From contig CAIPKV010000056.1 in NCBI GenBank assembly GCA_903865745.1, positions 1-39,261 on the forward strand: a DNA stretch of 39,261 nucleotides, read 5' to 3'. Under the pieces are notes generated by a model. It was not told the origin of the DNA. It saw nothing but the letters and a program-made list of their open reading frames with translations, and did not search any database. Made by a program: the position numbers and the translations under genes. Source of the stretch: an uncultured Verrucomicrobia subdivision 3 bacterium. GTDB taxonomy: Bacteria; Verrucomicrobiota; Verrucomicrobiia; Limisphaerales; UBA11358. This document shows, piece after piece, positions 13,698 through 35,370 of this stretch (the stretch's first letter is position 1; the number at the start of each line of letters is the position of its first letter).

Positions 13698-14027
13698 TTA
13701 AGATGCGACACAATCGAGCAACGGCTCGCGATCCCGCAAGGAACACAACACCGCATCAATCTGGTCGCTGGTCAGAATCCAACCCCGATGGGGTAGTTCG
13801 GCAATCACCGCCCACTTGAAGCGTTGATAAAAGTTCAATGCCTGATCTGCATCGAAGCAGTGGTCGGCCAGAATGGCCAAGGCCAGTTGCGCCGGCCCGC
13901 TGCCACCGTAGCCCCATTCAAACCCGGTTGGACTGTGATTCCACAAGTCCAGCCGGGGATTGAGCCGCCAGCCGTCCACGGTGACGCTGACGGCATAACC
14001 TTGCCGTTTGCCTTCATACCGTTTCAT
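13698..14027 (-). CDS. DUF6166-like small protein
   Basis: The recognisable signature is DLWNHSPTGFEWGYGGSGP, followed by AQLALAILADH, which is what I remember of DUF6166. Its role is unknown. I choose the start at 14027 (109 residues), because it overlaps the primase stop by 4 bp (ATGA) and removes an amino extension that is unlike the family. The gene is co-translated with the primase and ends in the terminator at 13663-13691. DUF6166 genes are common on plasmids and phages. Confidence 0.7.
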   Translation of the reverse strand: MKRYEGKRQGYAVSVTVDGWRLNPRLDLWNHSPTGFEWGYGGSGPAQLALAILADHCFDADQALNFYQRFKWAVIAELPHRGWILTSDQIDAVLCSLRDREPLLDCVAS

Positions 14028-15061
14028 TGATGGCCCTCCACGATGTCCGCCACTTCTTCGTCGGTGAGGTGTTCCGGTTCCATGTCGGGACGCGGAAACT
14101 GATGCACCCGGACGAAACAGAACTTGGACAGGCGACACGCGATGTCTTCGCGGCCAGCTTTGCCCGCCTCATTTTCGTCGAGCATGACGATGACGTGGCT
14201 GTCACTGGTGGTGTGTTGCCGGATCAATTCCTCCTGCGTGCTGGACAGGGTGCTGCCCATGAGGGCAACCACCTTGCGGTAGCCATGGTCATGGATTTTC
14301 ATCGCATCAAAGAACCCTTCGACGATGAGCAGCGGTTTTTCCGCCGGTTCTTTGATCGCCCGGTCAATGTTGAATAGCTCCTGCGACTTTCTGAATCCCG
14401 GCGGCAGTTTGTATTTGGGTGTGCCTTCCGGCGGCTCGCCGACGAACCGTCCCGCATACGCGACGACTTCGCCCTTGGCGTTGTGAATCGGGATGGCGAT
14501 ACGGTTGGCCATCATGCCTTTGGCGCAATAGCCGATGCCAAAGTCGATGATGGTTTCCGGCGTCAGGCCGCGCTGCTCCGTCAGATACGGATGACTGCGT
14601 TCCAGTATATCCAACCGGAATTTCAACGGCATATTAGGCGCGTTACTTTCCGGTGCTGCCTTCGGCGCTGCGGCTGGCCGTGCCGCCGGCTTCGCTGCCG
14701 GTGCGGGTGTTTTCGGCTCGGCAGCTTCCGCATTTTCGTCACTGACGGCCATGGCCTCGTGATCAAGGTTGAACCATTCAATCGCCTTCAACGCGGCGGC
14801 GTGGATGCTACACTTCTCCATCTTGCAGATGAAGTCGAGCGCATTGCCGCCGTGCTCGCAGTCGCTGAAACAATTCCAGAGGTTCTTGCTGGTGCTGACG
14901 CGGAACTGCGTCGGGTTGCTGCCCTTGTGAATCGGGCACGGCCCATTCAGGCTTTCGCCGGTGCGTTTGAACTGATCCATGATGCCGTAGTGCTGAAGCA
15001 ATTGCTCCATGGTGATGGCCGCTTTGATGGCCTTGAAGTCAACGAACTTGGTTTTTGACAT
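14024..15061 (-). CDS. DnaG-like primase: CHC2 zinc finger plus Toprim domain
   Basis: The protein should make RNA primers on single-stranded DNA of the element. A CHC2 zinc finger is visible: C42, H45, C64 and C68, followed by GGNALDF. The Toprim domain shows VEGFFDAM (Glu 248 region) and MLDENEAG (Asp 295 region). An Ala/Pro-rich linker (about 112-142) joins them. At 345 residues it lacks the helicase-binding end of chromosomal DnaG. I prefer the start at 15061 (MSKTK) because an AGGAG lies 8 bp before it. The longer frame up to 15292 would overlap the upstream gene. It is preceded by operator copy D. Confidence 0.85.
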   Translation of the reverse strand: MSKTKFVDFKAIKAAITMEQLLQHYGIMDQFKRTGESLNGPCPIHKGSNPTQFRVSTSKNLWNCFSDCEHGGNALDFICKMEKCSIHAAALKAIEWFNLDHEAMAVSDENAEAAEPKTPAPAAKPAARPAAAPKAAPESNAPNMPLKFRLDILERSHPYLTEQRGLTPETIIDFGIGYCAKGMMANRIAIPIHNAKGEVVAYAGRFVGEPPEGTPKYKLPPGFRKSQELFNIDRAIKEPAEKPLLIVEGFFDAMKIHDHGYRKVVALMGSTLSSTQEELIRQHTTSDSHVIVMLDENEAGKAGREDIACRLSKFCFVRVHQFPRPDMEPEHLTDEEVADIVEGHQ

Positions 15062-15129
15062 AATAATGCTCCTGTGTATGTGGTTGTGATGAACGTGACA
15101 GCCCGGAATTGGGTCTGCCTCCACTGGCC

Positions 15130-15185
15130 ACGCTAACGCCCGCCGGGGAAAATCAGGAGACGTGTGGCTTTGCCGAATCTGGCAA
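15130..15185 (-). promoter_or_regulatory. Shared operator-promoter, copy D (primase operon), inside the upstream coding sequence
   Basis: Minus strand: palindrome TTGCC-N6-GGCAA (15170-15185), 7 bp, CGTCTCC (15156-15162), 20 bp, TAGCGT (15130-15135). The palindrome and box lie in the last 11 codons of the replication-relaxation gene, which ends at 15153. Confidence 0.75.
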
Positions 15186-16061
15186 GTCCACGAGGGATGA
15201 CATGACAGCGGCTTTGCCACATTGCCAGACGGCGGCGAGCAAATCGCGTTGCAACACAGATTCGTCGGCGAAAAGGAACAGCCCGTGACCACGCTGCAAT
15301 CGCGAGCAGGCGTCCAGCAGTGATTTGACCCGCGCCGCGCCGGTGGTGACGGTCACCACGCGGAATCGCGGGATGCCCAGATGCCGCTGGTGAACCTTAT
15401 TTGACCAGGTCGCCTCGTAGGCGAGCAGCTTCCTGTAAAATGATGTCTGAGATAGTTTTTCCCGGACGACGGGCATGGTGCCGCGGTCGGCTTCGAGGAA
15501 ATAATAAATCCGCTGTGTCGAGCCATGTTGATCGGCGTATTCCAGCGCGAACACGCGGTCGGGGATGACGCCGAGCTTGGAGCCGTCACGGATTTTTACC
15601 CGCCAATGCAACGGTGCTTCGACATGCAGATTCAATTCATCTTCAGGCAACAGTCGGATGCCATGCTGACGGCAGGCGAGTTCAAGCGACACCATGACTT
15701 CGGAGACCAAAAGTGCGTGCGCGAAATATATCTGTCCGATGCCGCGATTCTTTTCGCCCCACGCCGCGGGATTGAGTTGCAGCAGTGAACCGCTTTTATT
15801 TCCTAAACCGTAGGCGATGGTTTGGGAACCGCTGCATTCGTAGTATTGAAGCTGGGCGCGCGGGCGTTCCAAATAGCCGTGATGAAACAGCCATTGCAAT
15901 CGGCGGGATAAATTCTGGGCGCTGCCGCCAATCAAGGCGACGATCTGGTGGGAACGTAAAAAACGATGCCGATGAATAATCCGGATGATTTGGTGGTCGC
16001 GCTCCGTCAACTGGATGGGTGCAACCGTGGTGACACGCTGGAAACGTGGCAGGCGGGACAT
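15153..16061 (-). CDS. Replication-relaxation family protein (winged helix)
   Basis: The 302-residue protein fits the Replic_Relax family (PF13814) found on actinobacterial and other plasmids and integrative elements. It has an amino winged helix (about residues 18-75, TERDHQIIRIIHRHRFL) and a carboxy part with GVIPDRVFALEY and YYFLEADRGTMP, like a nuclease-type fold. Such proteins are linked to plasmid replication and nicking or relaxation, but the biochemistry is poorly known. The start is ATG at 16061. A -10-like hexamer sits only 6 bp before it, so the mRNA would be leaderless. Its 3' end carries operator copy D of the primase operon. Confidence 0.75.
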   Translation of the reverse strand: MSRLPRFQRVTTVAPIQLTERDHQIIRIIHRHRFLRSHQIVALIGGSAQNLSRRLQWLFHHGYLERPRAQLQYYECSGSQTIAYGLGNKSGSLLQLNPAAWGEKNRGIGQIYFAHALLVSEVMVSLELACRQHGIRLLPEDELNLHVEAPLHWRVKIRDGSKLGVIPDRVFALEYADQHGSTQRIYYFLEADRGTMPVVREKLSQTSFYRKLLAYEATWSNKVHQRHLGIPRFRVVTVTTGAARVKSLLDACSRLQRGHGLFLFADESVLQRDLLAAVWQCGKAAVMSSLVDLPDSAKPHVS

Positions 16062-16067
16062 CCCGGC

Positions 16068-16123
16068 AGAATGACGGTGACTAGCGCAACGCGGGAGACG
16101 TTGGGATTTGCCTCATGTGGCAA
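16068..16123 (-). promoter_or_regulatory. Shared operator-promoter, copy E (replication-relaxation gene)
   Basis: Minus strand: palindrome TTTGCC-N6-GGCAAA (16107-16124), 7 bp, CGTCTCC (16094-16100), 20 bp, CATTCT (16068-16073), then 6 bp to the ATG. The hexamer is weaker than in the other copies but the spacing is the same. Confidence 0.72.
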
Positions 16124-16206
16124 ACGATCGGATTATGATTGAACCACAAGGGTTCCCACCCTTCCCGCCAAACACTCATTTATTCAACAAAAATAACGGT
16201 TTTAAC

Positions 16207-16235
16207 TTGGCGCATAGATTCTGAGCAGCTTTAAT
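16207..16235 (+). promoter_or_regulatory. Sigma70-like promoter for the HU gene
   Basis: TTGGCG (16207-16212), 17 bp, TTTAAT (16230-16235). The HU ATG is at 16279, 43 bp further. It points away from operator copy E. Confidence 0.5.
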
Positions 16236-16278
16236 AGGGCTTCGACTAACATTAACACCAAAGAACACTTCTAAAATT

Positions 16279-16566
16279 ATGGCTAAAGCACTTACCAAAT
16301 CACAAATCACGGCGGAACTCGCCACTAAGAATAACCTCACCAAGAAACAAGCCGTTGAAGTCCTCGAATCTCTGGTTCAACTGGCCTATAAGAACGCCAA
16401 GAACAGTTTCACCATCCCCGGCCTCGGCAAGCTGGTCCTCGTCAACCGCGCCGCGCGCATGGGCCGCAACCCGGCCACGGGTGAAGCCATCAAGATCAAA
16501 GCCAAACGCGTCGTGAAGTTCCGCGTCGCCAAGGCGGCCAAGGACGCCATTCTCGGCACCAAGTAA
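16279..16566 (+). CDS. hup: HU-family DNA-binding protein
   Basis: The 95-residue protein matches HU/IHF in length and layout: amino helices (TKSQITAELA), the beta-arm region with MGRNPATGEAIKI, where the RNPxTG motif contacts DNA, and a basic end. HU bends and compacts DNA. Being encoded beside the replication-relaxation and primase genes, it may serve as the element's own nucleoid protein (inference). The start is ATG at 16279 without a strong ribosome site. The gene is followed by the basic-protein gene 21 bp later, probably in one operon. Confidence 0.93.
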   Translation: MAKALTKSQITAELATKNNLTKKQAVEVLESLVQLAYKNAKNSFTIPGLGKLVLVNRAARMGRNPATGEAIKIKAKRVVKFRVAKAAKDAILGTK

Positions 16567-16587
16567 GTCGGACCTAAATATTTTTTT

Positions 16588-17007
16588 ATGAGCTTAATCC
16601 ATCTGACTTCCGCTCAACTCAGGCAGGCCGCCGGGCTCAAGGACCAGATCGCGAACCTGCAAAAGCAACTCACCGCCATATTCGGCGGCAAGGAAACCCC
16701 GGCTCCGGTTGCCGTGGCCAAGTCAGTCGTTAAACCGGTGGTCGCAAATAAAGGCGGCATGAGCGCCGCTGGCAAAGCTAGAATCATCGCCGCCCAAAAA
16801 GCACGCTGGGCAAAAATTAAGGCGGCGAAGACCTCCACTGCCCCGGCTGTCAAGACGGTGGCCAAATCAGTTCCCGTCGCCAAAGCATTCAAGCCGGCGG
16901 CGGCCAAGAAGGGCCGGGTTATCAGTGCCGAAGCCAGGGCCAAAATGGCGGCGGCGGCAAAGCTGATGTGGGTAAAAATCAAAGCGGCGAAGGCATCAAA
17001 AAAGTAA
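16588..17007 (+). CDS. Lysine/alanine-rich nucleoid-associated protein (histone H1-like)
   Basis: The 139-residue protein is very basic, rich in Lys and Ala, with two related segments: SAAGKARIIAAQKARWAKIKAAK at about 58-80 and SAEARAKMAAAAKLMWVKIKAAK at about 112-134. They look like NUMOD3/AT-hook-type DNA-binding repeats. The amino 40 residues form a helix with LKDQIANLQKQL. Low-complexity basic proteins of this kind bind DNA nonspecifically. Being co-transcribed with HU supports a role in compacting the element. The operon ends in the hairpin at 17030-17067. Confidence 0.75.
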   Translation: MSLIHLTSAQLRQAAGLKDQIANLQKQLTAIFGGKETPAPVAVAKSVVKPVVANKGGMSAAGKARIIAAQKARWAKIKAAKTSTAPAVKTVAKSVPVAKAFKPAAAKKGRVISAEARAKMAAAAKLMWVKIKAAKASKK

Positions 17008-17029
17008 TCTGCAGCCTGTCTCCTTAGCG

Positions 17030-17067
17030 AAGGCCACTCTTTTTCAAGAGTGGCCTTTCACTTTTTT
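17030..17067 (+). terminator. Rho-independent terminator after the basic-protein gene
   Basis: A perfect 10-bp stem (17030-17039 with 17048-17057) with an 8-base loop is followed by TTTCACTTTTTT. It sits between convergent genes and mainly serves the plus strand. Confidence 0.8.
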
Positions 17068-17100
17068 AAGGCCAAGGTTGTTAACTGACCGATATAAACT

Positions 17101-18423
17101 TTATAGGGATTTTGTGGGATCGAGGTTGTGGGAAAAGCGGTCATCCAACGAAGTCATCCATCGCCGCAACTTCGCCTCAATTTTCGCACGCGGCATGGCA
17201 AACCGCTCGCGTGACAGCGCGATGAGTTTGTCCCTGCGGCCAACGCGATTTTCCAGCGGCGGCAGCATCTTGGCCCGGAACGGTTCGCGGTTGGTGCCGC
17301 CGACCAGCAATTTCACCACGGCTTCATACTGATTCAAGTCGGCCAACGCCGTCGCCGGAATGGTTTTGCCAAATTCCTTGGTCATCACTTCCGCATCGGT
17401 GTAGCCGATGCGGAAAGCCACCAACGTCCCGACATTTCCGAACACCGCCTGCCGGATCGGTTCGGAAAGCTGGTCAATATATTGGTGCGACAACGTGAGG
17501 CAGAGCCGGTATTTTCTCGCCTCCGCCAGAATGGAAGCAAACGCATCCGTCGAGAAATTCTGAAACTCGTCGATGAACAGATAAAAGTCCCGGCGCTCGG
17601 ATTCAGGTTTGTTGGCACGCGCCATCGCGCCCAACTGAAACTGCGTCACCAACAGTGAACCGAGCAAGTTCGCCTTGTCGTGACCAAGCTGTCCCTTGGA
17701 CAGATTGGCGATGAACAGTCGTCCGTTATCCATCACGAACGGAAGATCCACTTTCTTTTTCACCTGACCCAAAATATTTCGCACCACGGGATTCAAAAGG
17801 AACTGACCAATTTTATTTTGAATCGGCGCAATGGCCTCGCGTTTGAACCGCTCGTCGTAGTTTTCATATTCCTCCGCCCAGAATGCCCGGATGAACGGGT
17901 CTTTGACCTGGCGGATGATCTTGGCCCGGTAGTAGTCGTCGGTGAGCAGGCGATTCACGCCAAGTAGAGTTTGGTTCCGAGATTCCAACAACGCGGATGC
18001 CGCGTTGTAGAGAATGTATTCGAGTCGCGGCCCCCACGAGTCGCGCCAGATGCCCTTGAATGCCGCCACAATGCCCGAGGCGACGAGGTGCCGGTCATCT
18101 GGGGCCACGGAGCCAATGACATTCAAGCCGATGGGGAATTCCAAGTCGCCCGGATTGAAATACACCAGATGATCCGCCCGCTTCGGCGGGATGTGATTCA
18201 ACAGTTCTTCGGCCAAATCGCCGTGCGGGTCAATCACGCCAACGCCGTGGCCCAGCGCGATGTGCTGCAAAATTAGGTTCCGAAGCAACGTGGTTTTACC
18301 AGTGCCGGTTTTACCAATGATGTAGAGGTGCTGCCGTTCATCAATCGCCGCAACGCCAAAAGGCTGGGGATCGCCCCAGCTAGTTTCCTCGCCGATGATG
18401 ATGTGTGGATTTTGGTCGTTCAT
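17101..18423 (-). CDS. TraD/VirD4-like coupling ATPase, short form
   Basis: This 440-residue P-loop ATPase is a shorter relative of the one at 1827-4985. Walker A is GKTGTGKT (residues 37-44), followed by IDPHGDL, and Walker B is LFIDEFQNF (about 282-290). The tail holds the TraG-C/TraM-recognition segment (TLSHQY). It probably feeds DNA to a secretion channel or packages it. I choose the start at 18423 (MNDQ) because it overlaps the stop of a small upstream ORF by 4 bp (ATGA). The longer frame starts at 18501 with a Pro-rich stretch that fits no family. It lacks the amino domain, linker and carboxy domain of its larger relative. It is not preceded by the shared operator. Confidence 0.82.
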   Translation of the reverse strand: MNDQNPHIIIGEETSWGDPQPFGVAAIDERQHLYIIGKTGTGKTTLLRNLILQHIALGHGVGVIDPHGDLAEELLNHIPPKRADHLVYFNPGDLEFPIGLNVIGSVAPDDRHLVASGIVAAFKGIWRDSWGPRLEYILYNAASALLESRNQTLLGVNRLLTDDYYRAKIIRQVKDPFIRAFWAEEYENYDERFKREAIAPIQNKIGQFLLNPVVRNILGQVKKKVDLPFVMDNGRLFIANLSKGQLGHDKANLLGSLLVTQFQLGAMARANKPESERRDFYLFIDEFQNFSTDAFASILAEARKYRLCLTLSHQYIDQLSEPIRQAVFGNVGTLVAFRIGYTDAEVMTKEFGKTIPATALADLNQYEAVVKLLVGGTNREPFRAKMLPPLENRVGRRDKLIALSRERFAMPRAKIEAKLRRWMTSLDDRFSHNLDPTKSL

Positions 18424-18545
18424 GGTGCCAGAACCAGCCGCCACTCCTGGACGTCCCGGTTGTGGTGGACGTAGTGACACCGGCAGTAGTGCTTGGGGCA
18501 CGCCGGCGAGATAATGGCGGCTGGTTTTGAAATCCGAACGGGCAA
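18420..18545 (-). CDS. Small Cys/His-rich ORF overlapping the ATPase start
   Basis: This 41-codon ORF uses a TTG start at 18545 and ends in TGA overlapping the ATG of the ATPase gene (ATGA). It has a compact C-P-K-H-Y-C-R-C-H cluster, which suggests zinc binding. The overlap points to translational coupling. Against it: a non-ATG start, only a weak AGG-type ribosome site, and a 12-bp inverted repeat covering the same DNA. It may be a genuine small partner or a chance ORF. Confidence 0.42.
   Translation of the reverse strand: MPVRISKPAAIISPACPKHYCRCHYVHHNRDVQEWRLVLAP
18432..18526. repeat. 12-bp perfect inverted repeat
   Basis: AACCAGCCGCCA at 18432-18443 is matched by its complement TGGCGGCTGGTT at 18515-18526, with 71 bp between. 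It lies just before the short coupling ATPase and inside the 41-codon ORF, so it could form a stem in the mRNA leader. Confidence 0.7.
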
Positions 18546-18619
18546 TCAGCCTACCATGCGGTTCGGAAATCGGACGCGCCGTGGGCGCGGCGGAATTAAA
18601 ATAGCGCCCAGTCGGGCGA

Positions 18620-18899
18620 CGCTTTCTCCCTGCGAGTGGTAAAAGCTAGTGTCTTGACCGGTCTGGTCGTAACACTCGTTGCACCCGTCGTCCTTGCTCC
18701 GCGCTTCGGCGCGAGCCGGTCGCGTCAGCGAACTCGTGGTTGGGCGGTAGCCCTGATCTTAAAACCCGTCCCCCAACGTGTCGGCGATTCCGGCCGACTT
18801 ATCGCTTTTTGGTAAAGGACAACGGCTAGGTGTCATTTACCCGGATAGCCCGCAGGGAGAAAGCGATAAGTCGGGCGGTAGCGCGACGACACGTTGGGG
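18620..18899. other. Structured non-coding region with stacked inverted repeats
   Basis: No ORF of note is present. Perfect stems: 15 bp (18620-18634 with 18851-18865), 15 bp (18794-18808 with 18860-18874), 13 bp (18771-18783 with 18887-18899), and a local hairpin CGCGC-TTCG-GCGCG in 18690-18715. The first two stems share bases 18860-18865 on their right arm and so exclude each other. GGGCGGTAGC occurs twice (18742-18751 and 18873-18882). It may be a structured RNA with alternative folds, an oriT-like or origin region, or a recombination site. The sequence alone does not decide. Confidence 0.6.
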
Positions 18900-18940
18900 A
18901 GCTAGTGGTGCGGCGGTTAAGCCGTAGAAGTAAATAGTCA

Positions 18941-18977
18941 CGGGCAAATTGCCCCTACAAACCATGTTTGTAGCCCG
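18941..18977. repeat. Nested small inverted repeat, REP/MITE-like
   Basis: CGGGC...GCCCG encloses TACAAAC-CAT-GTTTGTA, giving a compact hairpin. It directly follows the structured region and precedes the 64-residue gene end. It may be a terminator-like structure or a REP remnant. Confidence 0.5.
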
Positions 18978-18987
18978 TCGTTGGAAA

Positions 18988-19182
18988 CTAATATTTTATA
19001 GCAGTGGATTTTTCCGCAGCTTTCCGAAGCGATGCGACTTTGTCCAAGCTGTGTTCTTGGTCGCAATAAATCTGATTGCCGGGTCCGATCCAAAGTCTGG
19101 CTCCATCCAGATCACAAGTTTCCTTGCTTTGATTTGGCACTGGCTTCGACCAACCCTTGGGAATCCGTAAATATATCTGCAT
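18988..19182 (-). CDS. Small protein of unknown function (64 aa) with a strong ribosome site
   Basis: The start is ATG at 19182 with GGAGG 6 bp before it, the best ribosome site in the region, which makes this a real gene. The protein has IPKGWSKPVP near its start and two Cys, C23 and C40, the second followed by QEH. This may be a partial metal site, but the family is not recognised. The overlapping frame starting at 19193 begins within the ribosome site and is rejected. No partner gene is adjacent. The structured region lies downstream. Confidence 0.65.
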   Translation of the reverse strand: MQIYLRIPKGWSKPVPNQSKETCDLDGARLWIGPGNQIYCDQEHSLDKVASLRKAAEKSTAIKY

Positions 19183-19233
19183 GATACCTCCATTTAAGCA
19201 TGGTTTGGCGGCCTTGAACAGGGCGTCAACAGC

Positions 19234-19262
19234 TTGACAAAAACCTAATATAATGGTATGAT
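19234..19262 (+). promoter_or_regulatory. Near-consensus sigma70 promoter upstream of the XRE regulator gene
   Basis: TTGACA (19234-19239), 17 bp, TATGAT (19257-19262). The predicted start is near 19270. The shared operator copy F then lies about 40 bp inside the transcript, so the regulator could block or modulate its own synthesis. Confidence 0.75.
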
Positions 19263-19307
19263 AATCAAGTAGTTAAATAGCCATATTCTTCCAACTACAA
19301 CACACGT

Positions 19308-19363
19308 TTGCCAGTTTTGGCAAATCCTCATGTCTGCCTGATTTTTCGTCTGTCGGTTAGGGT
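19308..19363 (+). promoter_or_regulatory. Shared operator-promoter, copy F (XRE regulator operon)
   Basis: Plus strand: palindrome TTTGCC-N6-GGCAAA (19307-19324), TGTCTGC (19331-19337, versus CGTCTCC elsewhere), 20 bp, TAGGGT (19358-19363). Palindrome to hexamer is again 34 bp. This is the only copy on the plus strand and the only one preceded by a separate sigma70 promoter. Confidence 0.7.
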
Positions 19364-19368
19364 CACGC

Positions 19369-19401
19369 ATGAACCATCTTCGGTTCACTTCAATCCCATG
19401 A
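19369..19401 (+). CDS. Possible 10-residue leader peptide before the regulator gene
   Basis: An ATG 5 bp after the TAGGGT hexamer opens ten codons (MNHLRFTSIP) whose stop TGA overlaps the ATG of the regulator gene (ATGA). If transcription starts from copy F, the leader would be leaderless and the regulator translationally coupled to it. The short length means it could be chance. Confidence 0.35.
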   Translation: MNHLRFTSIP

Positions 19402-19745
19402 AATCATTACCCAATTATCTTCAAGCCCAACGCAAGCGCCTGGCCCTCTCGCAAGAAGAGGTCGGTTTTTTGCTGGGTCTGAACGGGATGAACAAGGGAA
19501 ACAAGGTGTGTCGCGACGAAACCTTCGCCCGCGAACCGTCACTGCTAGATGCACTCGCCTACGAGGTGATCTATGGTCGCCCCGTGAGCGAGCTTTTTGC
19601 CGGCCTGCATCATCAGGCGCAACAAAGAGTGGCGGAGCGGGCCAAGGTTTTGTCCTTCCGCAAGGCTCGGAAGACTTATCCGCGCCGCGAGCAAAGTATT
19701 ATTCAATTGGCGGAATCAGCCCGCGTTAATCCCATCAACCCATGA
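19398..19745 (+). CDS. XRE-type helix-turn-helix regulator, candidate master regulator of the element
   Basis: The 115-residue protein has an XRE-like HTH at about residues 1-60 (YLQAQRKRLALSQEEVGFLLG), a second motif LDALAYEVIYGRPVSELF, and a basic helical tail. XRE proteins bind short palindromes as dimers. The gene has its own copy (F) of the 16-bp palindrome found before five other operons, plus a strong sigma70 promoter, which suggests autoregulation and control of the group. This link is inferred from position. Family members can be repressors or activators. The start at 19398 fits the leader overlap. Its stop overlaps the start of the next gene (ATGA). Confidence 0.75.
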   Translation: MKSLPNYLQAQRKRLALSQEEVGFLLGLNGMNKGNKVCRDETFAREPSLLDALAYEVIYGRPVSELFAGLHHQAQQRVAERAKVLSFRKARKTYPRREQSIIQLAESARVNPINP

Positions 19746-20236
19746 CCCAAAACAAACCTGTTCGCATATTAGCCATCGCACCGACTGCTCGTGGTTTCGG
19801 CTATGCGGTCATGGAAGGTCCGCGCCGACTCGTCATGTTCAGCAACAAATCCATTTTGCAAAACAAGAATGAGCGCACATTGGTGTGGGTGGAGAAATTT
19901 ATCCGCCGTTATGAACCAACGGTGATGGTGTTGCCAGCGGTGAACGCCGCCGACACGCGCCGGGCAAAACGGATCAAGCATTTGCACCAGCGACTGGTCG
20001 CGTTAGCCACCCAACATGATTTGAAAGTGAAACTCATCACCGGCACCAAAGTGCGGGAGCGGTTGCTGGGGCAGATCAAGGGCAACAAGCAATCGTTGGC
20101 GGAAGCGTTAGCCGGGTTGTTTCCCATCGAGTTGGCGCCGCGCCTGCCACCGAAGCGCAAAGTGTGGAAGAGTGAAGATCCGCGCATGGATATTTTTGAT
20201 GCGGCGGGGTTGGCGGTGGCTTTCTGGCCGAAGTGA
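19742..20236 (+). CDS. RuvC/RNase H-fold protein, apparently lacking catalytic acids
   Basis: The sequence follows RuvC-like topology: ILAIAPTARGFGYAVMEG at the amino end, a VMVLPAV strand in the middle, and MDIFDAAGLAVAF at the end. In active RuvC the first strand carries ID-P and the second a Glu. Here the positions are Ala (AIAP) and Pro (VLPA). The carboxy Asp pair is present. So the catalytic site looks incomplete, and the protein may bind junction DNA without cutting. It overlaps the XRE gene by 4 bp and should be co-expressed. The operon ends in the terminator at 20261-20295. The fold call is from motif reading only. Confidence 0.6.
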   Translation: MTQNKPVRILAIAPTARGFGYAVMEGPRRLVMFSNKSILQNKNERTLVWVEKFIRRYEPTVMVLPAVNAADTRRAKRIKHLHQRLVALATQHDLKVKLITGTKVRERLLGQIKGNKQSLAEALAGLFPIELAPRLPPKRKVWKSEDPRMDIFDAAGLAVAFWPK

Positions 20237-20260
20237 TAACCGTCATTGAATCATCCCGTG

Positions 20261-20295
20261 AAGGTCGCGCCGATTTTGTGGTGCGGCCTTTTTCT
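20261..20295 (+). terminator. Rho-independent terminator after the RuvC-like gene
   Basis: An 11-bp stem (20261-20271 with 20280-20290, two G-U pairs) with an 8-base loop runs into TTTTT. Confidence 0.75.
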
Positions 20296-20366
20296 TAAAA
20301 GAAATGTCCCCCTGTATTATTCATTAGGTTATTCATTGTATTACTATGCATGACACTTTTGGCATG

Positions 20367-20417
20367 GGGGGTATGCTATTTCTGTCATACCCCCTATGAC
20401 AATTTTGTCATACCCCC
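20367..20417. repeat. Tandem 23-bp repeat and 9-bp inverted repeat at the end of the HTH gene
   Basis: Two 23-bp units (20372-20394 and 20395-20417) share a 12-base tail ending in CATACCCCC. GGGGGTATG (20367-20375) is the exact complement of CATACCCCC (20386-20394). The second unit codes for the last residues of the HTH protein. Two tandem units at the end of a replication-type HTH gene resemble iterons. Confidence 0.6.
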
Positions 20418-20786
20418 TTTGCCACCCAATTTGAACTTGTGGACAAGTCGAATGCGATCGTCTTGTAGACGGCGAACTTCGTTGTCAGGCACGCGAGCGT
20501 AGCGACCAACAGTCCGAATGACACGCTCATTCAAGTTATGAACCGTCACACTAATATATCCTTTCTGCTTCAACGATGAGATATGCCCGGCTATTCGACG
20601 CGGGTGTAGGCCAAAGAATTCAGCAAAATAGCGGTTACCCGCAAAACAGCCACGCTCGTTGTCGAGCGAATGAATTTCTACGAACAAAACTTTTTCCATA
20701 AGCGAAAGCTCCTTCGACAACCAGATGTCTTTCGGAATCCAAATACCCTTGAAGTCGCGTGAGGGTTTCTCCATGTCTCCCATCAT
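20394..20786 (-). CDS. HTH protein, replication-initiator-like (HTH_36 type)
   Basis: The 130-residue protein has IWIPKDIWLSKELSLMEKV, followed by NRYFAEFFGLHPRRIAGHISSLKQKGYISV (about 50-80), a winged-helix DNA-binding domain like those in phage/plasmid replication proteins. It is shorter than most relatives. Reading the repeats past the stop in the +1 frame gives a second copy of GGMT, so a longer ancestor may have been cut by a frameshift. It could be a replication initiator binding the repeats at its own 3' end. A divergent gene starts 65 bp away with an inverted repeat between. The start is ATG at 20786, with AAGG 7 bp upstream. Confidence 0.65.
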   Translation of the reverse strand: MMGDMEKPSRDFKGIWIPKDIWLSKELSLMEKVLFVEIHSLDNERGCFAGNRYFAEFFGLHPRRIAGHISSLKQKGYISVTVHNLNERVIRTVGRYARVPDNEVRRLQDDRIRLVHKFKLGGKGGMTKLS

Positions 20787-20840
20787 AGCAAGCCTTTCCG
20801 AATCACGCTAATCCACAGGTCGAGTTCACAAGAAATTTTC

Positions 20841-20868
20841 GGCATGATAAAATGAGATTAATCATGCC
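20841..20868. promoter_or_regulatory. 8-bp inverted repeat between divergent HTH genes
   Basis: GGCATGAT (20841-20848) and ATCATGCC (20861-20868) are exact complements 12 bp apart. They cover the start codons of the plus-strand gene, as expected for an autoregulatory operator. Confidence 0.6.
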
Positions 20869-21502
20869 AATAGAAAATCAATCATCACCGCAGCCAGAAT
20901 CTTTCGGTAATGTTCCGCACATTGCGGAAGGTGGTTTTGATATTCCGCAGACTTCGGCAGAGTTCCGCACCGTGCCGAATACTGCCGAAACTTTCGGCAA
21001 GATTCCGCAGGCTGCGGAACGCAAGGAGAACCACGCCCTAACGGTGCGGGAAACTGCTCGGAAGTTTGAAGCGGCGGGTGTGGCGCGGACAGAGCGTAGC
21101 GTCATCAATTGGTGCCAACCCAACCGTCAGGGAATTACGCGGCTGGATAGCTACTACGATCCGAACGAGCGCAAATACTACATCGCACCGCAGAGTGTGG
21201 AAGCGGTGATTCAGGAGGAAATTTTGCGAGCAAAGAAATCAACAGAGCCAACGACTTCAGAATCGTTCGGAAGTGCTATGGAATCCGTGAAACATCCGCG
21301 CAACGCCAACGCTGCTGACGAGAAACGGATCAAAGAACTTGAACACGAGATTTTAGATTTGAAAATTGCTAATCGCGGGAAGGATTACCTGATTGGTGAA
21401 CTGAACAAGGAACGAAAATCATTCTTCGACCAACTCCTTTTTGCTAACCGAACCGTAGGCCAATTGGAGGCGAAATTAAATCAGTTGGATGAGCCAAAAT
21501 AG
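20852..21502 (+). CDS. HTH/coiled-coil DNA-binding protein, plasmid-segregation-like
   Basis: Three parts are visible. Residues 1-60 contain 10-residue repeats with the pattern F-x-x-V/I-P-x-x-A-E, encoded by the 10-bp-phased heptamer array. Residues 62-125 form an HTH-like domain (LTVRETARKFEAAG, then ERSVINWCQPN, then YYDPNERKYYI). The tail is a coiled coil (KRIKELEHEILDLKIANRGKDYLIGELN). HTH plus coiled coil is the layout of plasmid partition adaptors such as KfrA. I infer that the protein binds the array in its own gene. The start is 20852 or 20864, with no good ribosome site before either. It is divergent from the replication-type HTH gene. Confidence 0.65.
   Translation: MRLIMPIENQSSPQPESFGNVPHIAEGGFDIPQTSAEFRTVPNTAETFGKIPQAAERKENHALTVRETARKFEAAGVARTERSVINWCQPNRQGITRLDSYYDPNERKYYIAPQSVEAVIQEEILRAKKSTEPTTSESFGSAMESVKHPRNANAADEKRIKELEHEILDLKIANRGKDYLIGELNKERKSFFDQLLFANRTVGQLEAKLNQLDEPK
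20903..21019. repeat. 10-bp-phased heptamer array, in-gene centromere or origin candidate
   Basis: Words TTCCGCA/TTCGGCA and their complements TGCGGAA/TGCCGAA start at 20903 (variant TTCGGTA), 20913, 20923, 20943, 20953, 20963, 20973, 20983, 20993, 21003 and 21013. The slot at 20933 is degenerate but in phase. Orientation reads F F R - F F F R R F F R. The 10-bp period is one DNA turn, placing the sites on one face of the helix. Confidence 0.85.
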
Positions 21503-22136
21503 GATAATTCTGTTGCACTGATCCAGATGCAAGTAATATAGCGTATTTATTGAGGAATTCAAGGAATTGTTGCCTGAAATTCGCTTAAATTCCGGCTGTG
21601 TGCGTAATACCTGACTGACAGTTTCTCTGACAGTCGCTTCCTGCCAAGGGGCACTGTCAGTTGCCCGGACGGGACGAAAATCCGAAGGGCAAATTTTCGG
21701 ATGAGCGGCCTGGTCCGGGCCGTGTGATAATATGGCGCGTGCGTAGGCGATTCGCTTCGGCACAGATTTCAACGGTGGGTGAAACAGCAACCCATCGGAC
21801 TACCTCGTCACAGCTCTTGTTTGGAGGTTTTTGGTCCACTTTGGCTGCCACTAAGCATTCGCAATGGCGTGGTTACATTTCTGCGTTGTCGATTTTTTGC
21901 TTGCGAGTCTGGGGCGGATTGTGCAGAAAATTATATGAAGGCTGGTATAGCAGTAATGCTAATCAGAAGCATGATTACATGCGAAGGAGAAAACTTGTCC
22001 TTGGGGCCTTCCTCTCTTGCCATTGATCCGCCAGGTGTTTCTGAGTTCCGTGTTCAACTTTTTCGATCTCATTATCCAAGGGTGCCTATTTTGAACGGTT
22101 CACGACATTAACTGCATAAAACAAAAGGAATCCATT
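21503..22136. other. Gene-poor stretch, no supported gene
   Basis: Two plus-strand ORFs of 110-121 codons overlap here but have no family resemblance or good starts, so none is called. The stretch contains CTGACAGT repeats (21615-21660) and a 7-bp inverted repeat ATCCGAA...TTCGGAT near 21684-21706. It separates the element backbone from the secreted-protein genes and could contain its boundary. No integrase site can be proven. Confidence 0.5.
21615..21660. repeat. CTGACAGT repeats: two direct, one inverted
   Basis: CTGACAGT occurs at 21615-21622 and 21627-21634, and the complement ACTGTCAG at 21653-21660. The cluster could be a recombinase- or regulator-binding site near the end of the element. 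Confidence 0.5.
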
Positions 22137-22429
22137 ATGAAAACTATCCGGCAGGGCATGGTTGGAAGTTTAGTTTTGATGGCAATACTCATGGTGGTGA
22201 CCGGCCCCGTCGCGCTGGAGACACGAATCTCGTATCGTGCCCGCTGCCAGTTCCAAAAAATAGAAAATTTAGTTTCAGTGACGGCACTCAAAGTTGGCTG
22301 GTGGACAACTCAACTAACACAAGTGATATCTACGTCGTCGGCCATTCCGGCCTGACCATCAATGGGTGCAAGCCTCAATACGATAACCAATTCGTTTCAC
22401 CGGTGGACGTTCCACCAAGAAAAAAATAG
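22137..22429 (+). pseudogene. Secreted-protein gene with a frameshift
   Basis: Frame 1 from ATG 22137 gives a clean signal peptide (residues 1-26, MVGSLVLMAILMVVTGPVA). The frame starting about two bases later gives a good protein tail (FSFSDGTQSWLVDNSTNTSD, then YVVGHSGLTING) ending in TAG at 22429. The two join if one base is lost near 22205-22230. Read without a shift, frame 1 ends at 22355. It may be a real pseudogene, a sequencing error, or a -1 programmed shift. The next gene starts 4 bp later, supporting a former operon. Confidence 0.55.
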
Positions 22430-22432
22430 CTT

Positions 22433-23326
22433 ATGAAAACATCCGCAATTGAATTTTACGCGAGCATATCAAGGAAAATATGTGCGTTTGGTGTTGTGCT
22501 TACACTTGCGGCAACCTCATTGCCTTGCCGTGCCGATGATTCCAATACGAATGTCATTGTGGGCAGCATCGGAGCGGGCCAAGAGGCGATTGCGTTTGTA
22601 ACCGACTACGGCCAGCCTGAACCCAAATATGACGGGGTTCTGATAAGCCAATGGCTACAGATCCACACGCTGGTCAATCCAAACCATTTATCGCTGTCGG
22701 CCTTAATGACGGTAAAACAAATATCTCCGCCTGACCGGCTGGGTATCACCAGGTTTGATCTGCCTATCAACTTTAGTGCTTTCAACACGAATTCGCCCGA
22801 CCATGCCTATGTGCAATTGGGAAGGCTGTCTGTAAGCAACGATTTCATTCAATGCACATTTCAAGGCATGGAAAGAGGTCGAAATGGGTGCCTGCAAATG
22901 TGGGCCAATATGAACTATGAGCCAGACAAACAAGACATCCGGGCGAGGCTGACATACGAGACAAATTCCGACTCCATCATTGTAATCGGGCCATCTTTGC
23001 CCTTTGACTCCAGCAACGCCTGTTATTTTCTTGAAGGGGATGCGTTGTTCAACTCAGATGGGGCCACGCTCCATGCTGAATTGCGCGAGCAAAATGCAAA
23101 GTATCGCATTGAACTGACAACCCCCAAAGGCAAGCACCTTAAAACAATCATTGGCATCGTCACCAACGCCGTCATTAATACGCAATGGGAATTGAAGGAC
23201 GACCGGGATAAAATATTCAAGGGCGATACTTTTGAGGCCGCTTTTTATGTCGCATATCCTGGCGACACTCATACAAACGCACCCGTCAGAAATATTTTTA
23301 GCCGAGTTCCCAATCGGAACCATTGA
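22433..23326 (+). CDS. Secreted protein of unknown function
   Basis: The 297-residue protein has a signal peptide: a charged start, then a hydrophobic stretch (FGVVLTLAATSLPCRA), with cleavage near residue 34. The mature part is probably beta-rich and has no recognised domain. Few Cys and many Asn/Thr residues fit an extracytoplasmic protein. The coding DNA is more AT-rich than the sugar-degradation genes downstream, hinting at a different origin. It overlaps nothing and is followed 7 bp later by another secreted-protein gene. Confidence 0.55.
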   Translation: MKTSAIEFYASISRKICAFGVVLTLAATSLPCRADDSNTNVIVGSIGAGQEAIAFVTDYGQPEPKYDGVLISQWLQIHTLVNPNHLSLSALMTVKQISPPDRLGITRFDLPINFSAFNTNSPDHAYVQLGRLSVSNDFIQCTFQGMERGRNGCLQMWANMNYEPDKQDIRARLTYETNSDSIIVIGPSLPFDSSNACYFLEGDALFNSDGATLHAELREQNAKYRIELTTPKGKHLKTIIGIVTNAVINTQWELKDDRDKIFKGDTFEAAFYVAYPGDTHTNAPVRNIFSRVPNRNH

Positions 23327-23333
23327 GGACGAA

Positions 23334-24119
23334 ATGCTGAATTCAAAGCCAGAACGTCGGCTGCCGTTGATTGTCTTATCGCTGGCCTGTGTCGTAATGC
23401 GGACAGCGATAGCCAATGGGCTTCCGCCCGGCGTGCCAAATCCTATCGGGCCGGATGGCAAATATACACACGCGTTATTTTTTACAACCAAAGCATATCA
23501 GGACGAGGCTTTGAAACTGGTGATTCGAGAGGCAAACCAAGTGGCTAAAGAATTAAAGCTGTCAAATGAGTCGCCCATCACGGAATCGAACATCGTCAAG
23601 TCGTTCATCAACCCGTTTGGCTACGCCTACGCAAAAAAGGCCATCGGAAATATCACCACCTCGAATTACTGCTATTACGTCGCCCAAGGAAACAAGTTTT
23701 CGTATCTGGAAAGCCCGCATCAGGACAAGCTTTGCCGGAAATTCCAAGTCGCTTACACGCTGCCCGTCAGCGAGATTGACACCAACGAGGCATTGAAACT
23801 GGCGACAAGATGGTTGAAGGCTATCTCTATGGACACAAAGGCGCTGAACCGAGATTGTTCTGTGACCGTGGAACTTGACCGCGCCTATGTCCACCCGCCC
23901 GTAGGGAAAATTGTGCCGTTGTATTATGTGTGCTGGTTCAACAACCAAAAGCAAGGGGTCGCGTCCGTCAGGGTTTTTACTCCAACGAAAACGCTATTGC
24001 AGTTGCGGGTAGAGGATTCAAAATACATTCGTCGTCCGCAGTTCGAATTTGCGAACCTTGATTTTTTGCTCTCGCAGACGAATGTGGTTGAAAGTGGCAA
24101 TGTGCCCAGCAAACAGTGA
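23334..24119 (+). CDS. Secreted protein of unknown function, second of the trio
   Basis: I use the ATG at 23334 because it has GAGGA 5 bp upstream and avoids a long overlap with the previous gene. A hydrophobic stretch (LPLIVLSLACVVMRTAIA) follows, a likely signal peptide or anchor. The 261-residue mature part has repeated Lys-rich helices and a segment on the KIVPLYYVCWF pattern that might be a beta strand. No family is recognised. It is AT-rich like its upstream neighbour and lies 10 bp before the next gene. Confidence 0.55.
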   Translation: MLNSKPERRLPLIVLSLACVVMRTAIANGLPPGVPNPIGPDGKYTHALFFTTKAYQDEALKLVIREANQVAKELKLSNESPITESNIVKSFINPFGYAYAKKAIGNITTSNYCYYVAQGNKFSYLESPHQDKLCRKFQVAYTLPVSEIDTNEALKLATRWLKAISMDTKALNRDCSVTVELDRAYVHPPVGKIVPLYYVCWFNNQKQGVASVRVFTPTKTLLQLRVEDSKYIRRPQFEFANLDFLLSQTNVVESGNVPSKQ

Positions 24120-24129
24120 GGATGCGCCT

Positions 24130-25293
24130 ATGAAAACGATGCGACTACTTTCTACACGGCTGGTTTTGGAGGCATGGGTTCTGTTTTTGCCGGCCCTGGG
24201 ATTTGCCCAAATCCCGCCGTATTACCCCAGCCCGGTTTCGCCGGTGCGGATCACCAGCCCGGCCAATCATGCGACGTTTTATGCGCCGGTGGAAATCCCC
24301 ATTTTTGCGTATGCCAGCCTGACTTATTACACCAGTCCGTTCTCACCGGTGCCGGGCGGCATCACCAATGTGGAGTTTTACGCGGGCACGAACGATCTTG
24401 GTTCCGCTTTCAACCTGGGCGCCGGCACGCTGCCGAGGTCGGCGACTTACGCCAATTTTGTCACTACCAGACCGATTCCGCGGCTGGGAAACACCTACTG
24501 CCTGACCTGGACCAACGCACCGACCGGCACGTTTGCCCTTACGGCCGTGGCCAAAGGCGCAGGTAGCTTGTCCAAAACCTCCGCGCCGGTGAACATCACC
24601 ATTCTGGCGGCGGGCACCAATGCGAATCCGGCGGATGTGGTGAGCATTGTGGCTACTGATCCCATTGCCATCGCGGGGACGAATGCCTGGGTTTGGCGCG
24701 GGGTGACCAATGCCGTGCCGACTTGGACGAATTGGGGCCAAACCGGCTGGGTGTGGTTCACGAATTGGGGGCCGAAAAATGCCCTGTTCACCCTCCAGCG
24801 GTTCGGCGATGCCAGCAGCAACTTGACCGTGAATTACCGCCTCGGCGGCACGGCCAGCAATGGCGTGGATTATGCCGCGTTGCCGGGAACCGTAACGGTG
24901 CCGGCGGGGTCAGGCTACGCGCTGATTCCCATTGTGCCAATTGACAACGGCGTGACGAACATCACGAAAACGGTCACTTTGACGCTGACGGCCGCGACCA
25001 ACGTGCCGCCGGATTACACGGTGGGCTGGCCCGCCAGTGCCGCCGCACTGATTTATGAAAACTGGCTGCGGACACCATCCGCCGTTTTGCCCGGCGGCAG
25101 TTTTCACCTGACGGCCACCGGGCCGGACGGGGCGTGGTTTTATATCCAGTATTCCACGGACATGGTGAATTGGTCCGTGGCCAGCACGAACCAGGTGTTT
25201 CAAGGCTCGATTGATTTTGTGGATCCCGAGGCGGCGAGCCAGGCGAGCCGGTTTTACCGGGCGGTGCCGGTGGACCATTCACCGGGGCAATAA
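24130..25293 (+). CDS. Secreted Ig-like / Calx-beta protein
   Basis: Start at 24130 (387 residues). The protein has a signal peptide (LVLEAWVLFLPALGFA), then a bacterial Ig-like domain (about 35-180, VRITSPANHATFYAPVEI, then NVEFYAG). A Calx-beta domain follows at about 220-315 (VNYRLGGTASNGVDY, then GTVTVPAGSG). A short carboxy part contains WFYIQYSTDMVNW. Calx-beta and Ig modules are typical of large Verrucomicrobiota surface proteins, probably for adhesion or substrate binding. It may form an operon with the two genes before it. Confidence 0.75.
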   Translation: MKTMRLLSTRLVLEAWVLFLPALGFAQIPPYYPSPVSPVRITSPANHATFYAPVEIPIFAYASLTYYTSPFSPVPGGITNVEFYAGTNDLGSAFNLGAGTLPRSATYANFVTTRPIPRLGNTYCLTWTNAPTGTFALTAVAKGAGSLSKTSAPVNITILAAGTNANPADVVSIVATDPIAIAGTNAWVWRGVTNAVPTWTNWGQTGWVWFTNWGPKNALFTLQRFGDASSNLTVNYRLGGTASNGVDYAALPGTVTVPAGSGYALIPIVPIDNGVTNITKTVTLTLTAATNVPPDYTVGWPASAAALIYENWLRTPSAVLPGGSFHLTATGPDGAWFYIQYSTDMVNWSVASTNQVFQGSIDFVDPEAASQASRFYRAVPVDHSPGQ

Positions 25294-25758
25294 GCGGCGG
25301 GCGATTTCAGCCATCATTCGTTTGACGGTTCGTGGCAGGATGCGCACATGGTAACCACCAAAACATCATTCCGAAGAAATCCGGCGGCGGTGGCGCTGGG
25401 ACGGTTGGGCAGATAGAAGGGCGGGCCGGCACGGACGGGCACTACATGCCCGTTACACATCTTTATGCGTATAAGGTAGAGACTTCAAAAATGCTAGAAT
25501 TTACCAAATGAACCAGACAATCCCGCCCGCCAACCGTCAACCGCCGACCGATCAAGTATTTTCTCATGGCCAAAAAAGATCGGCGGATGCCGAAGATGGG
25601 CTGGGTGGAATCGGACAGACTCACTCAATTCAGCACTGGCCGCCCTCAATCCCGTCAGAAACTTTCCATGTTCAACGATCCGACTTGCCCTTGGAATCCA
25701 TGTTTTTCCGGCCAATCGTCAATCCGCAAAACCGGCTATCAGCCTCCTCCTCCAAACT
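25294..25758. other. Leader region of the sugar-degradation cluster, no supported gene
   Basis: A 94-codon frame starting at 25566 overlaps the GH27 start and has no family resemblance, so it is not called. The region contains ACGGGCA-CTACA-TGCCCGT (25435-25453), abutting the shared 18-bp palindrome at 25454-25471. These are candidates for control of the cluster. Confidence 0.5.
25454..25471. promoter_or_regulatory. Shared palindrome TACACAT-N4-ATGCGTA, copy 1 (before GH27)
   Basis: An imperfect palindrome (one G-T mismatch) 288 bp before the GH27 start. The same sequence except one base in the spacer occurs at 28998-29015 before the GH78 gene, with nearby bases also shared (GTAT next to it). 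Confidence 0.6.
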
Positions 25759-27360: not shown

Positions 27361-27365
27361 CAGAA

Positions 27366-28964: not shown

Positions 28965-28997
28965 AAAAATGCTTATCCGCTTATGCTTTTTTCACAC

Positions 28998-29015
28998 TAC
29001 ACATTTTTATGCGTA
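28998..29015. promoter_or_regulatory. Shared palindrome TACACAT-N4-ATGCGTA, copy 2 (before GH78)
   Basis: Same imperfect palindrome as at 25454-25471, except for one spacer base, 47 bp before the chosen start of the GH78 gene. It suggests a second entry point for the regulator of the cluster. Confidence 0.6.
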
Positions 29016-29061
29016 TCAGTTGTCAGCCCAAACCATGCTAAACTCCCGAATCAATAATATA

Positions 29062-33005: not shown

Positions 33006-33014
33006 AGGACAACC

Positions 33015-33779
33015 ATGAAGCACACCCTCATACTCCTCGCCGCCCTGCTACTGGCGCCGATAGCCGCACCGCTGGCCGCGCAGACCGCCCCCCAAGCCCA
33101 ACCCCAAAACTGGTCGGAACCGCCCGTCGTCGAGCCAAAGTATGACGGCACTCTGATTCCGCCGCCGAAAGGAGCCGTTGTTCTTTTTGACGGCAAAAAC
33201 GCCAGTGGCTGGGTGGCAATCCCAAATAAAAATGATACCAACCAGAGCAGCCAATTTATCTGGAAAGTGGAAAACGGTTACATGGAAGTAGTCACTCCGC
33301 CCGGTGCCCGCGAGCAACGACTGGCCGGCACCAAGGAAAGCCCCATCACCAGCGGTCATCTGCACATCGAATGGGCCACGCCCGCCCAAGTGAAAGGCAC
33401 CGGTCAGGGCCGGGGCAACAGCGGCGTATTTATCGAAGGCTTTCCCGAATTGCAGGTGCTCGACTCTTTCAACAACCCGACCTATTTCGACGGCCAAGCC
33501 GCCGCGTTTTACAAAAATCGCCCGCCGTTGGTGAGCGCCTGTCGTGGCCCCGGTCTCTGGCAGTGTTACGACATTTACCTTCAGCGCGCCAAGGTGGCCG
33601 GCGGAAAAGTTGTTCAACCGAGCGTCATCACGGTTTATCACAACCATGTTTTGGTGCAGGATCACCTAACCTTTTCCAACGCCATCCAGACGAGCACACT
33701 CCGGCTTCAGGATCACCTCAATCCCGTGCGCTTCCGAAACATCTGGTTCATGCCGGGTGAAACGGTCTCCCAACCCTGA
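33015..33779 (+). CDS. Secreted DUF1080 (3-keto-disaccharide hydrolase-like) protein
   Basis: DUF1080 (PF06439) is a lectin-like beta-sandwich linked to breakdown of 3-keto-glycosides, often beside Gfo/Idh/MocA oxidoreductases as here. The signal peptide is residues 1-22. Typical segments are VVLFDGKNASGWV (about 55-67), GNSGVFIEGFPELQVLDSF (about 136-154) and HNHVLVQDH. The 254-residue length is usual. The first 32 bases including the start are the same as those of the remnant ORF at 35231, a sign of local duplication. It is 9 bp after the previous gene and 20 bp before the oxidoreductase. Confidence 0.88.
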   Translation: MKHTLILLAALLLAPIAAPLAAQTAPQAQPQNWSEPPVVEPKYDGTLIPPPKGAVVLFDGKNASGWVAIPNKNDTNQSSQFIWKVENGYMEVVTPPGAREQRLAGTKESPITSGHLHIEWATPAQVKGTGQGRGNSGVFIEGFPELQVLDSFNNPTYFDGQAAAFYKNRPPLVSACRGPGLWQCYDIYLQRAKVAGGKVVQPSVITVYHNHVLVQDHLTFSNAIQTSTLRLQDHLNPVRFRNIWFMPGETVSQP

Positions 33780-33799
33780 ACCCCTCACCACCATTATAT

Positions 33800-35359: not shown

Positions 35360-35370
35360 AAAATATTAAA

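Follow-up and report, generated by a model that had tools for sequence, protein, structure and literature searches.

A 10-bp heptamer array inside the coding sequence of a winged-helix protein from a Verrucomicrobiota genome: conservation at the DNA level and candidate roles

Why a short DNA word should recur at a fixed spacing within a protein-coding sequence, and which protein might read it there, is the question raised by a locus in a 39,261-nucleotide stretch of an uncultured Verrucomicrobia subdivision 3 genome (hereafter the window). A first-pass annotation, made from the sequence alone, had described eleven 7-bp words on a 10-bp grid, with all sites on one face of the helix. The grid was confirmed (Table 1), with exact TTCSGCA or its complement, TGCSGAA, in 10 of the 12 slots (20913, 20923, 20943, 20953, 20963, 20973, 20983, 20993, 21003 and 21013), a near match with one mismatch as the eleventh word (TTCGGTA at 20903) and one degenerate slot (20933). 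These words pass through all three reading frames of the open reading frame and result in a 10-residue peptide repeat. The turn of B-DNA is approximately 10.5 bp, so that a pitch of 10.0 bp is slightly short of one turn; neighbouring sites drift by approximately 17 degrees and the whole array by approximately half a turn, and placement on the same side of the helix therefore holds locally, as an approximation, and not across all 12 slots.

Table 1. Features of the array locus and neighbouring genes, in window coordinates
Feature	Position	Strand	Basis or remark
Mobile-element genes: DnaG-like primase, Replic_Relax protein, VirD4/TrwB-like ATPase	14024..18501	-	Profile matches
HU/IHF gene	16279-16566	+	Profile match
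Divergently oriented HTH_36 gene, commonly found beside the array gene; product resembles replication-initiation PHROGs	20394..20786	-	Profile matches
TTCCGAA, intergenic	20796..20802	+	Sequence
DnaA-box-like TAATCCACA, one mismatch to TTATCCACA	20809..20817	+	Sequence
Promoter-like TTCACA-N17-TAAAAT of the array gene, sigma-70-like	20825..20853	+	10/12 consensus bases
TTCGGCA in the spacer of this promoter, possible operator for autoregulation	20838..20844	+	Sequence; no binding data
Array gene, 216 codons as listed	20852..21502	+	Open reading frame with the heptamer grid in its 5' part
Heptamer array, 12 slots of 7 bp at 10-bp pitch	20903..21019	+	Inside the array gene coding sequence
Winged HTH domain, residues 58-130	21023..21241	+	MerR/BldC/Xis-like in the predicted model
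Extra TTCGGAA in the low-confidence linker	21266..21272	+	Sequence and model
C-terminal long helix, predicted coiled coil, residues 153-212	21308..21487	+	Structure model

Within its own 3.63-Mb genome, the array is the only place at which three TKCSGMA words (the consensus of the family described below) occur in a row at 10-bp pitch, with none in a backwards-read control. Two such words at this pitch occur at 13 places, 8 of them in the array (backwards-read control, 3), and the pairs beyond the array comprise two in the window (2445 and 19012) and three in the remaining genome. The second of the two window pairs, TTCCGCA-GCT-TTCCGAA at 19012-19028, lies between the VirD4-like gene and the next genes.

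Relatives of the array protein were found by protein search in 16 of 97 near-kin genomes, the source genome counted, and by profile search in 35 of 320 genomes of the order, 15 of 384 of the class and 2 of 387 in a sample of the phylum, these last being the source genome and one weak match. Protein searches of IMG/VR returned no viral relatives, and in PLSDB the window protein had no plasmid relatives. When one genome for each of 84,980 species was scanned on DNA alone for runs of six words at 10-bp pitch, 40 stretches were returned, of which 26 were assigned to the array family, 23 by profile hit and three by eye (L071, an array remnant without the core, and L072 and L101, which are cut at contig or locus ends). 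The other 14 had no profile hit, and inspection of 11 of these showed simple tandem repeats or other sequence. A Verrucomicrobiota label is carried by 20 of the 26 assigned stretches, and the remaining labels could potentially reflect mislabelled metagenome-assembled genomes (MAGs): L074 and L101 (one MAG) and L087 are labelled Proteobacteria, with the L074 and L087 contigs belonging to genomes of the window's own order, L078 is labelled Defluviicoccus, L072 is similar to L078, and L088 is labelled Acidobacteriia.

The N-terminal part is covered by 35 distinct genes, L100 having been removed from all counts as a duplicate of L017, and 32 of the 35 came from the protein search, i.e. independently of the DNA grid. 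The grid is present in 31 of these 32 members, the window's included, with the consensus TKCSGMA and 4 to 13 sites in one phase, mostly 6-13. The exception, L131, has a single TKCSGMA, yet a strong periodicity at 10, 20 and 30 bp with a CSG core. The HTH of L131 reads TKWC, versus INWC or VNWC in most members, and drift of the array to a C-S-G core together with this HTH could represent a change of specificity; L082 has VKWC yet a normal grid, against a simple reading of this kind. Partial homologues without the N-terminal part, such as L134, L135 and L137, were left out of the counts. No run of more than two sites occurs in any of these three, and the unrelated sequence that replaces the N-terminal part in L135 is read as a putative insertion; L136, also partial, has four sites in one phase within 150 bp.

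Whether the grid reflects selection on DNA or on peptide was addressed by synonymous resampling, in which the protein was fixed and codons were redrawn 2000 times from pooled usage and from the usage of the rest of the same gene. For the window gene, 10 grid sites were observed against a mean of 2.2 and a maximum of 6 in the resampled sequences, and across the 35 genes 313 were observed against 69 expected and a maximum of 93. No draw reached the observed count for 31 genes, one draw did so for each of L012 and L013, 22 for L028, which is a weak case, and 876 for L131. In the 34 genes other than L131, 315 of 357 slots match TKCSGMA, with slots counted from the first to the last matching site and end slots therefore matching by construction. 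The wobble bases inside the heptamers are near-fixed in all three codon phases, with T in 126 and A in 124 of 127 slots in the x-S/A-E phase, T or G in 123 and G in 123 of 123 in the V-P phase, and C in 103 of 107 in the F-G/R phase, unlike the spacer wobble bases, which are mixed and appear free. Non-synonymous changes that preserve the site are common among the array genes; the central base, which decides between Arg and Gly in the F phase and between Pro and Arg in the V phase, is C in 48 and G in 52 of 107 slots in the former and C in 106 and G in 14 of 123 in the latter. The array genes are related, so the wobble counts are not independent events, although the per-gene resampling nulls are unaffected by this.

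The array and its conservation at the DNA level are thus shown, and, with sites kept while the peptide changes, it is very likely that a DNA-level signal shaped the array protein. The alternative, that the pattern arose from selection on the 10-residue peptide repeat or from plain tandem duplication, has in its favour that the 21 aligned array proteins show the peptide repeat and that simple 10-bp tandem arrays of such words exist elsewhere. It is, however, very unlikely in view of the resampling result and wobble pattern, the central C/G swaps that exchange Gly with Arg or Pro with Arg and the differences between spacers from unit to unit. Peptide repeat or duplication as the sole cause was rejected on the resampling and wobble evidence. 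The first-pass annotation had likewise proposed that a DNA-level constraint shaped the protein, and had named as its refutation homologues that keep the peptide repeat with other codons while the heptamers vanish; that comparison was run and the refutation was not met, with homologues retaining the heptamers, synonymous positions included. Among the variants of the word, TGCSGCA is depleted (8 seen against approximately 30 expected from the margins; Fisher within phase p 0.0016 and 0.0008), which could potentially indicate that at least one TTC half-site is required.

A role at the RNA level, in which alternating words would pair with their complements and fold the mRNA, also appears very unlikely. 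The RNA of six arrays that were tried folded better than dinucleotide shuffles, with z of -2.1 to -4.7. However, real arrays had no folding advantage over versions in which the order of the 10-bp units was randomised (34 arrays, without L131; mean z +0.44), only one of the 34 falling below 5%, and mRNA folding would leave both the exact 10-bp pitch and the heptamers at the promoter unexplained. Rfam at gathering scores gave no match in window positions 18000-22500, and this negative and the unit-shuffle test together disfavour an RNA-level role.

The true start of the array gene is likely the ATG at 20864 (M5), which is invariant in the alignment, the -10 hexamer overlapping the first ATG. In an AlphaFold2 model built with 21 members (mean pLDDT 72), residues 1-57 are of low confidence, without regular structure, and are read as disordered; the winged HTH (wHTH) domain has 10-residue pLDDT means of 79-91, residues 131-152 form a low-confidence linker and the C-terminal part is predicted to be helical. 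The array lies in the first of the predicted-disordered segments, the N-terminal tail, and more heptamers lie in the linker region, with one in the window, two in L008 and six in L017, relatives having up to 6 linker sites, several at 10-bp pitch; this placement is shown, given the predicted model. When the model was compared with solved structures by VIA-align, two BldC-DNA complexes ranked first (Z 6.6 and 6.5), 51 of 51 residues aligning with 6amk at 1.5 A, with phage Xis/excisionases, MerR proteins, RacA, TraN, RdfS and the pSK1 Par-centromere complex (Z 4.2) at lower ranks. Long helices of unrelated proteins are interspersed in this ranking, one of them ranking third, and Z values below 8 indicate the fold class only and are no proof of kinship. 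Foldseek with the model returned no match at E <= 0.001, PHROGs no match to the protein, and Pfam and NCBIfam only weak matches, chiefly to coiled-coil families.

Close relatives share the promoter arrangement of the window array gene. In 33 promoter regions of 110 bp there are 22 heptamers, compared with 3.3 in shuffles (maximum 10 in 1000), distributed over 15 of the 33 regions and often located at the -35 hexamer or in the spacer; 13 is the safer count, the word in L131 and L132 falling within the HTH_36 gene or on its border. The other 18 regions lack heptamers, among them those of six of the eight members with a type-2 HTH_36 as their only partner, and in the remaining two of these eight the word is within or borders the HTH_36 gene. 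Owing to short flanks or the lack of an ATG, L015 and L139 were left out of this count and L015 out of the DnaA-box count given below. The promoter heptamers are shown as sequence features, and their enrichment points to self-binding, i.e. binding of the array by the protein that it encodes. A narrower possibility is that the array serves autoregulation alone, as a roadblock to transcription early in the coding region, and plays no part in maintenance. The location of the array directly downstream of the promoter, the enrichment of promoter heptamers and the precedent of KfrA of RA3, an autoregulator with an iterated operator (PMC7783346), are consistent with this, but it is considered unlikely, as the number of sites in one phase together with linker sites in many members would seemingly exceed what simple repression calls for, and the element backbone and DnaA-box context also speak against it.

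The main rival explanation, which remains possible, is that the array represents origin iterons bound by the divergent HTH_36 initiator-like protein, placed in a neighbouring gene somewhat as the lambda iterons are placed in gene O. The window HTH_36 matches replication-initiation PHROGs, one of them 'replication initiation O-like', and its identity as an initiator is inferred from these matches. Two HTH_36 families, of which one relative each was checked by Pfam, occur beside array genes, type 1 within 1.5 kb upstream in 23 and type 2 in 11 of the 35 members, three having both (L088, L089 and L105), so that one of the two is present at this distance in 31 of 35. With the HTH_36 of L106 found in the longer stretch L159, and L015 having too little sequence for the check, 32 of 34 testable members have an HTH_36 nearby; neither family was found in the 11.5 kb (L154) or 19 kb (L158) around the arrays of L013 and L139, respectively. 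Across the genus, 9 of 10 matches of the window HTH_36 adjoin an array gene. DnaA boxes with at most one mismatch occur in 17 of 34 intergenic regions, five of them exact, compared with 1.3 expected and a maximum of 5 in 200 shuffles, the counts including close relatives that share one box.

These four observations, i.e. the PHROG matches, the proximity, the distribution in the genus and the DnaA boxes, favour the origin explanation. Against it, two distinct HTH_36 families share one word and sometimes co-occur, the array stays with its own protein in L154 and L158 where HTH_36 is missing, and the promoter heptamers fit regulation of the array gene itself. Since HTH_36 is nearly always near, an HTH_36-bound origin stays a serious rival; its proximity in 32 of 34 testable members fits that rival as well and counts against self-binding alone, and it is possible that the array protein and HTH_36 both act at one locus. 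A ParD-like ribbon-helix-helix frame, identified by eye, is divergent to the array gene in L076, L083, L106 and L139, which may be indicative of a nearby toxin-antitoxin pair, an inference that rests on sequence.

Self-binding is the most economical reading of the array, in the absence of binding data, because the array remains with the array protein even where the partner family differs or is absent, because the same word occurs at the promoter of the array gene, and because the fold belongs to wHTH proteins that assemble in rows on DNA (BldC and RdfS). Further support comes from the rarity of site pairs elsewhere in the source genome and in the element stretches. Both BldC and RdfS are oligomeric wHTH proteins, with approximately one DNA turn between subunits in BldC (PMC5859096, PMC11963761), and BldC binds cooperatively to variable numbers of repeats (PMC5859096). 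Under self-binding, the array would be a DNA-binding platform inside the gene of the protein most likely to bind it, and each 10-bp unit, composed of a near-palindromic TKCSGMA and three free base pairs, would take one BldC/Xis-like wHTH per helical turn, with the coiled coils linking neighbouring or distant subunits. The array protein would then coat the first 120 bp of its own gene and the promoter sites as a cooperative complex, which would repress the gene and form the locus that maintains a conjugative-type element, either in a centromere-like manner or through coupling to a replication origin next to it. The identity of the binder, the one monomer per unit, the autorepression and the maintenance role are all inferred. 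A counterpoint is that heptamer orientation is mixed in the arrays, versus the need of BldC for polar direct repeats, and only near-palindromy, by which either orientation of the word may serve the same subunit orientation, would reconcile the two. Without binding data, the complete reading as a self-binding, autoregulated maintenance complex is the preferred one, but at little better than even odds.

The maintenance role, whether in partition or origin control, rests on context only. The window also contains ArdC, Fic and transposase genes, and in 27 relative stretches (two contigs being present twice), with representatives of neighbour clusters identified by Pfam, the Replic_Relax cluster occurs in 5, the primase in 5 and the VirD4-like protein in 10. 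This gene context is shown, and it places the array locus in a conjugative-type element. The first-pass annotation had additionally claimed an HTH and a coiled coil, which the predicted structure supports, and a centromere or origin role, which is plausible from the gene context with no binding or function shown. None of the 30 window ORFs scanned matched a ParA family, the sole exception being a weak match of the VirD4-like ORF to CbiA (E 0.05). The window contig has no exact terminal overlap, and the element may be integrated rather than a plasmid. Outside the array gene, 18 two-site pairs were listed in the 27 element stretches (reversed control, 0), 12 of them in L155 and L158, at or near array genes hidden by overlapping ORFs. 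A wider regulon of heptamer sites was rejected, as such pairs are few. The right half of the window consists mostly of glycoside hydrolases, and 22433-39245, which adjoins the mobile-element genes, resembles a polysaccharide-degradation cluster with GH32, GH2, rhamnosidase and alpha-galactosidase families.

Several known systems share individual properties with the locus. The BldC family of Streptomyces (6amk, 6ama), the first-ranked solved match, has the same MerR-like wHTH fold, but BldC has 68 residues and no coiled coil, whereas the array protein has the C-terminal helix 153-212 and a low-confidence N-terminal tail, and BldC repeats are described as AT-rich, polar and in promoters (PMC5859096, PMC11963761), whereas the array words are of mixed orientation and in coding sequence. 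KfrA of the IncU plasmid RA3 is similar in its HTH with a long helical tail and, as far as these are inferred for the array protein, in its autoregulation, its iterated operator and its role in plasmid stability (PMC7783346). The RA3 operator consists of five 9-bp repeats in both orientations (PMC7783346), and KfrA sites overlap the promoter, in contrast to heptamers spaced at 10 bp within a coding sequence. The array protein is predicted to have an HTH followed by a long coiled coil, and promoter heptamers occur in 15 of 33 members and are absent from 18; the Pfam families matched by the window protein, and 25 of the 26 matched by 21 members, do not include KfrA_N.

In SCP2, the site of a partition protein (ParT, acting at parS) is within its own coding sequence (PMC12260392), an arrangement like that proposed for the array gene, but it is one 18-bp inverted repeat, bound by a sliding clamp with a ParA partner, whereas the array protein has a wHTH and coiled coil and no clear ParA in the scanned ORFs. 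Phage lambda O resembles the array gene, if self-binding holds, in that the iterons of ori-lambda lie inside the gene of their own binder (PMC6022878), but there are four of these, with 18-bp inverted repeats, for an initiator, whereas members of the array family other than L131 have 6-16 slots of 7 bp that recur exactly every 10 bp. pSK1 Par (8csh) is a partition protein with a solved DNA-binding domain on centromere DNA, and is known to combine an HTH with a coiled coil; its sequence match to the array protein is not significant (E 0.65), and the likeness is limited to the structural Z of 4.2.

Sites inside the gene of their own binder (lambda O, SCP2 ParT) and iterated autoregulatory operators with a stability role (KfrA of RA3) are therefore already known. 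The open-access literature searched contained no description of heptamers on a 10-bp grid within a gene for a wHTH coiled-coil protein, which is weak evidence of novelty with subscription journals mostly outside its scope. The array shows with unusual clarity a DNA code taking precedence over a protein code, in that one 7-bp word runs through three reading frames and the peptide takes whatever residues the word yields, and it offers a natural, recodable test of a coding sequence that doubles as a nucleoprotein scaffold. Few plasmid systems are known in Verrucomicrobiota, and the array suggests that mobile elements of this phylum carry a locus for maintenance or control that has not been described. 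A bolder reading is that such arrays form a separate class of self-encoded centromere or origin, providing autonomous, ParA-free maintenance across Verrucomicrobiota mobile elements, with the two disordered segments largely being space for a DNA lattice of 10-bp pitch. This is judged less likely than not; if it were true, the coding sequence would be a regulatory DNA platform first and a peptide second.

A 4-site grid occurs in 37 IMG/VR contigs, for which all 37 arrays and the neighbours of 15 were viewed. These grids are likely mostly other things, i.e. operator-like clusters by phage regulators, simple tandem arrays and arrays by RepA-like genes. On the viral contig L062 (8251-8790), inspection by eye revealed a different short protein, wHTH-like in sequence, with five TKCSGMA sites on such a grid in the DNA that encodes its C-terminal tail; this may reflect convergence or a distant relationship. 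Two TTCCGAA followed by two TTCGGAA at 10-bp pitch occur in phage contigs L038 (5167), L041, L044, L046 (3695), L049-L054, L059, L064 and L065; where neighbours were viewed, this four-word cluster adjoins a short regulator-like gene (L038) or an XRE-like gene (L046), and it may be a phage operator. TTCCGCA words at 10-bp pitch occur in L032 (1625), L047, L048 (4692), L057, L061, L066 and L067, and in L032 and L048 they were seen by eye at one end of a RepA-type-ATPase-like gene, where they are possible iterons.
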